Source: an uncultured Saprospiraceae bacterium (GTDB lineage Bacteria > Bacteroidota > Bacteroidia > Chitinophagales > Saprospiraceae). From it: a stretch of DNA of 64,000 nucleotides. Made by a program: the position numbers and the translations under genes. Positions 4,061 through 10,014 of this stretch are shown here, one piece after another. The DNA lies in the NCBI GenBank assembly GCA_938016265.1, contig CALLWB010000081.1:1-64000 (forward strand), given 5' to 3'. The notes under the pieces are model-generated. The model had not been told where the DNA came from. It worked only from the letters and a program-made list of their open reading frames with translations, and searched no databases. How positions within the stretch are numbered: the first letter of the stretch is position 1; each line of letters begins with the position of its first letter.

Positions 4061-4797
4061 GATGAAATGGTTGATTTTTAGCAGTTGCTCGTAGAGGAGT
4101 GTGATAGTAATGAATGGTTCATTTTAAGGAAAAAGGCAATGTAGTATAAGTTATTGATTATCAAGTTTTTGGAAAAAAGTATAGAGTCCTCCACGATTGT
4201 GGGAGGGCTTTCCCAACCCTCCCCACCGCCTCCCTGATTTTCGAAAAAATCAGGGAGCAAAAATCAAACATTTCAGTACTTGATAGAGCAACCCCAACCC
4301 TAGTGGTATGCCCTAGAACTAAAACTATGAAAAATCGGCCGTATGACTGCAGGGAGAAACAATTCCTCCTACTATATAGAGTCAAAATTTGGGATTTTAC
4401 ATAAATCAGTTTTCAGATTTCTCCCAAAAACTTCCACAATTCATTCACAATCAGGGAGAAAAAATTTTAAAAAAAGTTGAGTTTTCAAAATGAAAAATGA
4501 CCTAATGCCATGATTCTAATCAAATTTTATGCGCTGCTTGACTTTTTTATTCATCGAAATGAAGGGGAATATCTACTTAAGATTGTTCCAAAGCGAATTC
4601 GTCTACAATTCGTTCTTTAAAAAATCAAACCTCCAAAAGTTGATTTCGTACTTTATAAGTTTTTTTCAAAACGAATTAAACCTTCTGATTATTATCTGGT
4701 CATAATAATCGTAAACCATTTTATAACATTGAAGTTGGCTACTGATTCTGGAGGTACCCCAAGAATTTTAATACAACTTCCCATAAAAAGCAAGATA
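4061..4797. other. Long intergenic region with nested GC-rich inverted repeats
   Basis: About 740 bases between divergent genes. Short ORFs here have no coding character. The notable part is 4188-4257: CCTCCAC (4188-4194) can pair with GTGGGAGG (4199-4206), the same GTGGGAGGG can instead pair with CCCTCCCCAC (4217-4226), and a perfect 12-bp stem CTCCCTGATTTT/AAAATCAGGGAG (4230-4241 with 4246-4257) follows. No T-run follows on either strand, so it is not a standard terminator. Confidence 0.6.
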
Positions 4798-5208
4798 ATG
4801 AGAAATACAACAGCAATAATATTCGTCGCTCTATTTAGTTTAGTTTTTTCAGCATTCACACCAGCAGATGCCGCTTTTAAATTTGGAAATTGGGTTCGAG
4901 TCGGTTCCAAAAAAGTAGATTTTAAAATTGACAGAGACGTCCTCCACGTAGGCCCTTCAAAAGGCAAGTTCGATCGCCTAAAATTACAAGTAACAGGCGG
5001 TGATCTAAACATGAGAAAGATGGTCATCGAATACGGCAATGGAGAAAAAGAAACGATCAACTTAAAACAAAAATTCAAAGCAGGAACAGGATCAAGAATC
5101 GTTGATTTGAATGGCGGAAAGCGAGTGATAAAAGATATTACCTTCTGGTACGATACCAGGAATAATGCGAATAGGAAAGCCGTCTTGCACGTTCTTGGCA
5201 ATCATTAA
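4798..5208 (+). CDS. Small secreted beta-rich protein (DUF2541-like)
   Basis: I place the start at the ATG at 4798, which gives 136 residues beginning MRNTTAIIFVALFSLVFSAF with a clear signal peptide cut near ADAA. An upstream ATG at 4729 would add 23 residues of non-signal sequence and is unlikely. The mature protein (VRVGSKKVDFKIDRDVLHV..., then KLQVTGGDLNMRKMVIEYGNG...) looks like one compact beta-sandwich ending in a conserved-looking ITFWYDT motif. It resembles small exported DUF2541-type proteins, but that family call is from memory and tentative. No lipobox and no catalytic residues. A terminator follows at 5298. Confidence 0.7.
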   Translation: MRNTTAIIFVALFSLVFSAFTPADAAFKFGNWVRVGSKKVDFKIDRDVLHVGPSKGKFDRLKLQVTGGDLNMRKMVIEYGNGEKETINLKQKFKAGTGSRIVDLNGGKRVIKDITFWYDTRNNANRKAVLHVLGNH

Positions 5209-7375: not shown

Positions 7376-8041
7376 TCATTGACCACCAACCTTCGTGACT
7401 ATTGCCTGTCGCAAACCCAAATACTCCAAATAAACCGCACCATACTCCATCCGCTGACTAACCGTCTCCTCAAAATTCCCCCGCAACCCAATCAACAGTT
7501 CAGCAACTTCTCGGACAGCATGCGCTCCCCCTTCCATTCCAGTAATGTAATCACAACCTCCACGATTCACAATAAACTCCCTTAGCAACGGACTAGCAGC
7601 CCGCCGCACACAAACAGACAGTCCACAAAGACCAGCCGCTTTCAAATCAAGAATGTCGTCAAAAACAAATAGGATTTCCTCCAAAGCAAAATTATTCTCC
7701 AACGCCAATCGAGCAATCGTCGCCGCCTTGTCCTTGTTATTCAGCAACACAACATCCAAATGCTCCCGCTCCGCAAACCCAATAGCCGACAGGTTATTCG
7801 CCCCAGTAATAACCCCGGTAAAAGGCAATTCCTTATGCGCCAACCAATGACTAAAACGAAGCATATTCACCCCCATCGAATCCGGTTCAGAAAATGGACT
7901 ACCAGTTCCTCCATGTCTCTTAATCCCCGCATTAAACACCCCATCCCAATCAAACAAAATACATCGAATGTCAGAAAGTTTCTTTTGAATCTCGGTTGGA
8001 GAACTGAGAAATTGACCACCTAGCTGTTTAAATTGCTCCAT
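7376..8041 (-). CDS. KdsC-like HAD phosphatase (ulosonate-phosphate phosphatase)
   Basis: A 221-residue HAD-superfamily phosphatase. Motif I is DWDGVFNAG (Asp31 nucleophile, Asp33 acid/base), motif II is ITGANN (Thr79), the Lys of motif III lies in NKDKAATI (103-105), motif IV is VFDDILD (128-132). The C-terminal segment GGAHAVREVAELL matches the GGxGAVRE tail of KdsC (3-deoxy-octulosonate-8-phosphate phosphatase), which with the neighbouring kdsA-like gene supports the call. It differs from ordinary KdsC: about 45 residues longer (extensions at both ends), and the usual RDG near residue 53 reads PDSMG. Last gene of the minus-strand cluster, 155 bases after the transaldolase-CBS gene. Exact substrate uncertain. 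Confidence 0.8.
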   Translation of the reverse strand: MEQFKQLGGQFLSSPTEIQKKLSDIRCILFDWDGVFNAGIKRHGGTGSPFSEPDSMGVNMLRFSHWLAHKELPFTGVITGANNLSAIGFAEREHLDVVLLNNKDKAATIARLALENNFALEEILFVFDDILDLKAAGLCGLSVCVRRAASPLLREFIVNRGGCDYITGMEGGAHAVREVAELLIGLRGNFEETVSQRMEYGAVYLEYLGLRQAIVTKVGGQ

Positions 8042-8196: not shown

Positions 8197-9201
8197 CTAA
8201 ATCAAATGCTGAATATCCACCAACCCAATAAAATTATCCCCTTCCATCACCATGATGGTATCCACTCGTTTTTCCTTGCAAAGTTTTTTGGCGTCATACA
8301 AAGAAGCACTCGGATCAATAGCAACTGGTGCGCCAGGCTCCAGATCGGAAAGGCGCAGTTCATGAATATTGGTGCCTTGCTCCTTGAACATTCTTCTAAG
8401 GTCGCCGTCGGTGAAAATTCGTGCTACCTTATTGTTATTCATGACCGCAACGGCGCCTAGTTTGGACTTCGTCATCATGAGGAGCGCGTCAATCACTTTC
8501 TCAGAGGCATCAATTCGGACATTTTCTGATTTTACGATATCGCCAACTGTGGTAGTAAGGATTCTGGTGTCCTGGATAAACTGATTGGTGCCAATAGTGG
8601 TGAAATGATTGTCCGTCAGTTTTTTCATTATTTTCCATGGAATGGTGCAAGTATGAACACCGATAGCCAAGGCATTTCGAATATGCTCCGCATAGCGGAC
8701 AGAAGAAAACATCACCTTCGAAGAATAATTATACCGCTGCGTAATTTCTACGCATTCTCTAACTAACCCAAGTGCATCATGCCCTTGATCCTGCAAACGC
8801 CCAACCAGCGGACAAACATAAGTAGCCCCCGCACTAAACGCCATATAAGCCTGCTGTACGGTATAAACCAGATGAAGATTGACCATCATTCCCTGATCTA
8901 CTAGCATTTTACAAGCGCGCGTGCCTTCTAGAGAAACAGGTATCTTAAAAACAGTTTTCGATTTGTCTAGTCCAGTACCAATCAGTCGATTTGCCTCTGC
9001 TACAATCTCCTCCGCATTATCTCCTAAGGCTTCCAGTTGCAAAATGTCTACATACTTGGCAATCTCCAGCATTTGCGCATCCACATCCTCAATTCCCTCC
9101 CTGACCATAAAGGTCGGCGTCGTAGTTAGGCCCGTTAAGTACCCTAGTCGACTAGCTTCTTTTATCTCTTCCAGATTTACTGAATCTAAGTACAATTCCA
9201 T
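8197..9201 (-). CDS. Transaldolase-like aldolase fused to tandem CBS domains
   Basis: A 334-residue fusion. Residues 1-215 are a short-type (TalC/FSA) transaldolase barrel: Asp6 in MELYLD, Schiff-base Lys86 in VFKIPVS, Ser166/167 in FSSVRY, and AGATYVCPLVGRLQDQG. The Asn of the normally invariant TTNP motif is Thr28 here (TTTP). Residues about 218-334 are two CBS domains (IFTDGDLRRMF, then VDTIMVMEGDNF) that look like those at the C-terminus of KdsD, arabinose-5-phosphate isomerase. So the catalytic SIS domain of KdsD seems to be swapped for an aldolase domain. The gene starts 3 bases after the kdsA-like gene ends and is followed by the kdsC-like gene. Inference: it supplies the aldose phosphate for the synthase, and the CBS pair senses a nucleotide or end product. 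Confidence 0.85.
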   Translation of the reverse strand: MELYLDSVNLEEIKEASRLGYLTGLTTTPTFMVREGIEDVDAQMLEIAKYVDILQLEALGDNAEEIVAEANRLIGTGLDKSKTVFKIPVSLEGTRACKMLVDQGMMVNLHLVYTVQQAYMAFSAGATYVCPLVGRLQDQGHDALGLVRECVEITQRYNYSSKVMFSSVRYAEHIRNALAIGVHTCTIPWKIMKKLTDNHFTTIGTNQFIQDTRILTTTVGDIVKSENVRIDASEKVIDALLMMTKSKLGAVAVMNNNKVARIFTDGDLRRMFKEQGTNIHELRLSDLEPGAPVAIDPSASLYDAKKLCKEKRVDTIMVMEGDNFIGLVDIQHLI

Positions 9202-9204
9202 GAG

Positions 9205-10014
9205 CTATCTATATTTTTTTTCTATTAAATGAAGTTCAATCAATGGTTTGACAAATTCCTCCAGGTCATCAATGTGCAACTGACTCGCTGCATCACATAA
9301 TGCTTTTGGAGGATTAGGATGTGCTTCAATAAAAAGGCCATCCACTCCTGCAGCCACACCAGCACGAGCCAACGTCGGCAAATATTCTCTTAACCCACCA
9401 GCAGGATCTGAACTAGGGATCCCATACTTCCGTATCGAATGCGTAATGTCAAAAATAACTGGATAACCGGTTTGTGCTAGATCGAAAAAACTCCTCGGAT
9501 CTACAATCAAATCATTATATCCAAAAGCGTATCCTCTTTCTGTAAGGAGAATGTTTTTATTTCCGGTCGATTCAATTTTGGCAATCGGTTTAGCCATATT
9601 CTTAGGAGAAATAAACTGTCCGTGCTTGAGATTTATTGTCTTACCAGTTTTAGCGGCTTCTACGACTAAGGTCGTTTGCATGCAGAGATAAGCTGGTATT
9701 TGTATAATGTCTAATACTTCACCGGCGGCTTTTACCTGCGATGGAAAATGGACATCAGAAAGGATGGGAAAGCCAAATTCGGATTTTACTTTTTCTAGTA
9801 ATTTTAATCCTTCCTCCAGTCCAGGACCAATGTAATAATCTACTGAACTCCGGTTGTCTTTCATGAAGGAAGACTTGTAAATGATCGGTAGATCAAGCCG
9901 CTCCGAGATGCTCTTCAGTTTCTCGGCGGTTTCCATCATAATGGATTCTTCCTCAATAACACAAGGACCAGATATCAGAAACAATTGATCCGGGTCGAGT
10001 ACAAAGTTGTTCAT
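9205..10014 (-). CDS. KdsA-like 3-deoxy-ulosonate-phosphate synthase, divergent
   Basis: A 269-residue DAHP/KdsA-type barrel that joins PEP to an aldose phosphate. It keeps the metal ligands of the metal-dependent class (Cys18 in SGPCVIE, His192 in ITHS, Glu230 in FIEAH, Asp241 in LCDAAS), plus Lys47, Arg55-Ser56-Ser57 and the TERGYAFGYNDL loop. Several positions nearly constant in KdsA differ: SFDKANR reads SFMKDNR, RQTDL reads MQTTL (the Arg equal to Arg106 of the Aquifex enzyme is Met112), and VKKGQF reads LKHGQF. Most of these line the sugar-phosphate side of the pocket, so the substrate may not be arabinose 5-phosphate. First gene of a three-gene minus-strand set with the transaldolase-CBS and kdsC-like genes. 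Confidence 0.85.
   Translation of the reverse strand: MNNFVLDPDQLFLISGPCVIEEESIMMETAEKLKSISERLDLPIIYKSSFMKDNRSSVDYYIGPGLEEGLKLLEKVKSEFGFPILSDVHFPSQVKAAGEVLDIIQIPAYLCMQTTLVVEAAKTGKTINLKHGQFISPKNMAKPIAKIESTGNKNILLTERGYAFGYNDLIVDPRSFFDLAQTGYPVIFDITHSIRKYGIPSSDPAGGLREYLPTLARAGVAAGVDGLFIEAHPNPPKALCDAASQLHIDDLEEFVKPLIELHLIEKKYR

Follow-up and report, generated by a model that had tools for sequence, protein, structure and literature searches.

Organization of the locus

The window, i.e. the whole stretch of 64,000 nucleotides analyzed here, comes from an uncultured Saprospiraceae bacterium (contig CALLWB010000081.1) and carries on its minus strand a gene in which a transaldolase-type barrel is joined to a pair of CBS domains, flanked by genes for a KDO8P synthase variant (KdsA*) and a phosphatase resembling KdsC:

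9205..10014, minus strand: kdsA*, KDO8P synthase variant (TIGR01362 over cut-off; signature DYMHRAQ), first gene of the presumed operon
8197..9201, minus strand: transaldolase-CBS fusion gene, an uninterrupted ORF of 334 aa (PF00923 and PF00571, AlphaFold and Foldseek), proposed A5P-supplying enzyme
8599..9195, minus strand: transaldolase/FSA barrel of the fusion, residues 3-201 (PF00923 and residue alignment), with Asp6, Thr28, Glu57, Lys86, His110, Cys130, Leu132, Arg135, Ser167 and Arg169
8203..8565, minus strand: CBS pair of the fusion, residues 213-333, nearest to the CBS pair of KdsD
7376..8041, minus strand: kdsC-like HAD phosphatase, downstream of the fusion (PRK09484 KdsC, E 4.1e-13, under cut-off)

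Only 3 bp separate the end of kdsA* from the start of the fusion. The neighboring phosphatase misses the cut-offs of both the KdsC equivalog PRK09484 (49 bits vs. 208) and the subfamily TIGR01670 (33 vs. 107), and is termed KdsC-like only. The gene order kdsA*-fusion-kdsC* seen in the window recurs in three relatives from its taxonomic order and in most of 80 loci, and kdsB adjoins the operon in 19 loci. A promoter and terminator scan of the operon gave fewer matches than shuffled sequence. Elsewhere in the window, positions 4729-5208 encode a small protein with a match to DUF2541 (E 8.7e-8).

Residues 3-201 of the fusion match the Pfam profile PF00923 (TAL_FSA) with an E-value of 3.1e-35 (122.3 bits vs. 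a gathering score of 27), and residues 219-272 match PF00571 (CBS; E 3.4e-11), which places the C-terminal part within the CBS family, the point that a profile search had been set to test. The best alignment of the whole tail (residues 215-333) is to the CBS part of KpsF/KdsD (TIGR00393, E 4.6e-15; KdsD PRK10892, E 6.4e-15), and the tail also aligns to PDB 3fna, 3k2v and 4o9k, which are the CBS parts of A5P isomerases, so that the initial, sequence-only reading of a transaldolase barrel joined to a KdsD-type CBS pair is upheld by both profiles and structures. With TIGR00393 (KdsD/KpsF) only the CBS part aligns (56 bits vs. a cut-off of 203.7), the SIS domain being absent, while the cut-off of the FSA/TalC equivalog TIGR00875 is not reached either (161.3 bits vs. 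245.95) and no NCBIfam equivalog fits the protein in the profile search. The structure prediction that had been suggested at the outset yielded an AlphaFold model, built on 41 homologues, with a mean pLDDT of 91.7 and a short-transaldolase fold; the best PDB matches of the barrel in Foldseek are the short transaldolases 1vpx, 3r8r and 3s0c, with a TM-score (on target) of about 0.9 for 1vpx and 3r8r. That the architecture had not been described earlier also agrees with our literature search, which found no paper joining transaldolase, CBS domain and arabinose-5-phosphate (A5P); papers that deal with both transaldolase and KdsD mention no fusion of this kind in the title or abstract text seen.

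Active site of the fusion family

In an alignment of 84 fusions Asp6, Thr28, Glu57, Lys86, His110, Leu132, Arg135, Ser166, Ser167 and Arg169 are invariant, and position 130 is Cys in 79 members and Thr in five. By contrast, each of 27 ordinary transaldolases from the same taxonomic order carries Asn28, Thr110, Ser130 and Phe132 (numbering of the fusion), and E. coli FsaA and TalB likewise have Asn at the equivalent of position 28. This bears out the presence of Asp6, Lys86, Ser166/167 and Thr28 for Asn, as noted from the window at first sight; the minus strand, the further invariant changes and the kdsA/kdsC context had not been given there. Compared with ordinary enzymes, Thr is replaced by His110, Ser/Ala by Cys or Thr130, Phe/Tyr by Leu132, and Ala by Phe165 and Ser166. 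In FSA, the donor is contacted by Asp6 and Asn28, while the catalytic water is held by Gln59, Thr109 and Tyr131 (PMC13259622). Neither the donor Asn28 nor the water-site Thr109 with Tyr131 or Phe132 of FSA and transaldolases is kept in the fusions, which have Thr, His and Leu in 84/84. The donor end and the water site have thus been rebuilt around an imine lysine and phosphate-site residues that are retained. Asn28 and the Ser/Ala at the position of Cys130 presumably hold the C1 hydroxyl of DHA/F6P, as expected from TalB and FSA structures. An aldolase-type enzyme with shifted specificity, as had been deduced from Thr28, fits the rebuilt pocket, but Thr28 is one of a set of changes, and His110, in the position of the catalytic water, seems at least as telling. 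The active-site signature of the fusion family appears to have been previously uncharacterized.

The fusion thus resembles the short transaldolases and FSA (FsaA/FsaB; PF00923; Tal of Thermoplasma and B. subtilis) in its barrel, imine Lys, Asp6 and phosphate-site Arg/Ser, with Glu57 as in transaldolases, and differs from them in Thr28, His110, Cys/Thr130, Leu132, Phe165 and Ser166, in the CBS tail, in its place in a KDO operon and in scoring under the FSA equivalog cut-off. With KdsD/GutQ/KpsF (TIGR00393) it shares a CBS pair with the FTDGDLRR motif and the same pathway gap, the two being mutually exclusive in genomes, whereas it has no SIS domain, an unrelated catalytic fold and probably imine chemistry instead of an enediol.

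Mutual exclusion with KdsD

Most Gram-negative outer membranes contain KDO as a core sugar, and SIS isomerases (KdsD/GutQ) are taken to catalyze the A5P step of its synthesis. KdsA, KdsB and WaaA are present in the genome of the window, KdsB and WaaA being ordinary by family score, and neither KdsD nor a KdsD-type SIS protein was found there: the other kpsF matches are an IMPDH and a site-2-protease-CBS protein, and the SIS proteins, rejected as KdsD, are a GlmS-like protein of 615 aa and proteins of 373 aa and 225 aa. In a class sample of 236 genomes, each at least 95% complete, 182 have a KDO8P synthase, and these comprise 39 with the fusion only, 141 with KdsD only, one with both and one with neither (E <1e-40 for KdsD, <1e-80 for KdsA and <1e-90 for the fusion; tables transcribed by hand and checked against program tallies). 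The Fisher p-value of 1.9e-37 for this exclusion is inflated by shared ancestry. Exclusion is also seen inside each of the seven families that have both types (chance about 6e-9 with labels shuffled within families), and even within one genus, where G070 carries the fusion but not KdsD and G140 carries KdsD but not the fusion. In family f29 the sole genome without the fusion (G317) is also without KdsA. The exception among fusion carriers, G349, has KdsD as well and is a metagenome-type assembly with 3% contamination.

Twelve genomes of the order sample, ten from family f18 and two that are incomplete, carry KdsA but neither of the two enzymes, so that the absence of KdsD alone proves little. 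The f18 genomes (L038-L043, such as G018 and G058) are near-complete, and their A5P source could be a third solution.

The KDO8P synthase of the operon

KdsA* passes TIGR01362 (330.9 bits vs. a cut-off of 314) and has the KxNRSS motif as KDNRSS. Its diagnostic residues (n=7) are D, Y, M, H, R, A and Q at E. coli positions 61, 117, 120, 139, 205, 251 and 254, and all fusion operons compared have this form, which was otherwise found in a single genome (G372). Several alterations lie at or near the aldose-phosphate site (F117Y, R120M, Q205R and others; loop 205-207); the A5P site of KDO8P synthase includes loop L7 and Phe112 of the N. meningitidis enzyme, which corresponds to about position 117 in E. 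coli (PMC6650799). The aldose substrate of KdsA* may therefore differ, which counts against A5P as the product of the fusion and underlies the main rival explanation below.

Two kinds of genomes bear on this. In G372, which is complete in one contig, the order is kdnA-kdnB-kdsA*-kdsC*-kdsB, the fusion being missing between kdsA* and kdsC*, with a normal KdsD encoded elsewhere. G276 and G246, which lack KdsD, carry the fusion and a canonical KdsA besides KdsA*; their operons also carry KdsA*, which rules them out as cases of a fusion with canonical KdsA alone. Both arrangements make sense if A5P is what the fusion and KdsD alike provide.

In ten loci, clear relatives of kdnA and kdnB flank the fusion operon, matching the 8-amino-KDO transaminase (PDB 5k8b; E about 1e-126) and the KDO 8-oxidase (PDB 5k8c; ~1e-124). 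Relatives of KdnA/KdnB were noted beside Bacteroidota KDO operons at L176:2839-5129, L178:5763-8103, L102, L126 and L097, and KdnB was found in most fusion genomes tested, which, on sequence grounds, suggests 8-amino-KDO in the LPS of those that have it. KdnA/KdnB act on KDO after its synthesis, and a role of the fusion limited to 8-amino-KDO is ruled out by the absence of KdnB from the genome of the window, G113 and G135.

Proposed function and alternatives

We propose, with a probability of roughly three in four, that the fusion is a Schiff-base enzyme that makes A5P for KDO, as a non-orthologous replacement of the A5P isomerase KdsD. The CBS pair had been regarded at first as a domain out of place; this view is not sustained, since the fusion sits in a KDO operon and apparently substitutes for KdsD, which puts the pair in the native pathway of KdsD CBS pairs. 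By analogy with KdsD, the pair might control flux through the fusion, perhaps in response to CMP-KDO, although this is a guess.

C1-C5 of A5P correspond to C2-C6 of fructose-6-phosphate (F6P), without the C1 hydroxymethyl group, which fits the changes of Asn28 to Thr and of Ser/Ala to Cys/Thr130 at the C1 end of the pocket. With the imine at C1 of A5P, its C1-C5 and phosphate would occupy the places of C2-C6 and phosphate in F6P, so that Arg135/Ser167/Arg169, Lys86 and Asp6 could be kept. Lys86 would first form an imine with the aldehyde carbon (C1) of either a pentose phosphate or a C2 unit; the enamine of glycolaldehyde on this lysine would then add to glyceraldehyde-3-phosphate (G3P), with the phosphate sitting on Arg135/Ser167/Arg169, and A5P would be released from Lys86 by hydrolysis. 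Free glycolaldehyde is one candidate for the C2 unit; alternatively, the unit may derive from ribose-5-phosphate (R5P) by retro-aldol cleavage in the same site, giving a net 2-epimerization of R5P to A5P. We know of no bulk source of free glycolaldehyde, which counts against the A5P proposal and makes R5P in the same site about as likely a source of the C2 unit as solution. The second option follows the logic of AraD (L-ribulose-5-phosphate 4-epimerase), an aldolase-family enzyme that epimerizes a pentose phosphate by retro-aldol and re-addition; AraD itself is a class II metal enzyme of another family and acts at C4. A more specific version of our proposal, which we hold as tentative and doubt somewhat more than we believe, is that the fusion is a Schiff-base aldose-phosphate 2-epimerase (R5P to A5P), working by retro-aldol/re-addition or by proton transfer at His110 under CBS control, and would represent a second, chemically unrelated KDO route across much of Bacteroidota; the part of His110 in proton transfer is itself a guess. 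Aldose-ketose isomerization of Ru5P to A5P via a covalent imine is ruled out on chemistry, as a non-hydrolyzable amine would be left, and this covers the covalent route only. For E. coli FsaA/FsaB, glycolaldehyde is the preferred donor, G3P the preferred acceptor and A5P the product in vitro, and the condensation of glycolaldehyde is quoted with a Km of 0.2 mM and a kcat of 16 per s (PMC6298115). Furthermore, FsaA gives A5P only, while the TalB mutant F178Y gives A5P and R5P (PMC9947464). The scaffold is therefore capable of A5P synthesis and gives access to both C2 epimers.

Given the altered KdsA*, which tracks the fusion almost perfectly and is changed at or near its aldose-phosphate site (F117Y, R120M, Q205R and others), the operon might instead make a different 3-deoxy-ulosonic acid: the fusion would join glycolaldehyde to another aldehyde phosphate, KdsA* would condense the resulting aldose phosphate with PEP, and KdsD would have been lost because A5P is not needed. 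We consider this unlikely, as G372 combines KdsA* with KdsD and no fusion, the extra canonical KdsA of G276 and G246 would be fed by the fusion only, and the family scores of KdsB and WaaA are those of ordinary enzymes. It is still less probable that the fusion is an ordinary transaldolase or F6P aldolase under CBS control which merely travels with KDO genes, A5P coming from another enzyme. Such an enzyme would keep Lys86, Asp6, Glu57 and the phosphate residues, as the fusion does, and the genomes of family f18 have KdsA but neither enzyme; yet Asn28, Thr109 and Phe/Tyr131 of transaldolases and FSA are replaced in 84/84 members, a separate ordinary transaldolase is present in the genome of the window, the score lies far under the FSA equivalog cut-off, and the exclusion with KdsD is near-perfect. 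This exclusion would be a coincidence if the fusion were a non-catalytic regulator or chaperone of KdsA/KdsC, an explanation to which the CBS tail and the persistence of the scaffold in copies without Lys86 (see below) lend something, but which we regard as very improbable, given that none of the 84 KDO-type members deviates at Lys86, Asp6, Glu57, Arg135, Ser167 or Arg169.

If the A5P proposal is true, the fusion family fills an A5P gap and corrects transaldolase annotations, and it provides a clear case of one regulatory domain on two unrelated enzymes at the same pathway step. It would also offer a natural A5P enzyme for synthetic glycolaldehyde pathways, for which an Ara5P aldolase with high affinity has been called for (PMC9947464).

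Distribution and divergent copies

A scan with one genome per species revealed at least 546 relatives in public genomes, and with more than 500 of them the fusion is not a chance event. The best 80 of these are mostly from Bacteroidota (carriers include Thermoflexibacter ruber, Raineya orbicola, Thermonema rossianum and Flexithrix dorotheae), with several Desulfobacterales and one SAR324 record. The family is thus spread over a large group of Bacteroidota, some Desulfobacterales and SAR324, and the Bacteroidota tested are almost always without KdsD. The fusions cluster together (support 0.73) in a tree built on the barrel, adjoining four divergent copies, which come from family f24:

L147:6889-7890, L148:6874-7917, L149:6927-7937 and L150:7132-8151: divergent transaldolase-CBS copies of genomes G191, G272, G222 and G248

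These four genomes are without KdsA, and their copies stand in another gene context and have lost Lys86 and Arg135. By sequence, the copies are probably pseudo-enzymes with a new role, and the loss of the catalytic Lys together with KdsA fits a role of the fusion in KDO synthesis. Beside the divergent copies lie conserved genes for phosphatase-like and peptidase-like proteins (named by eye).
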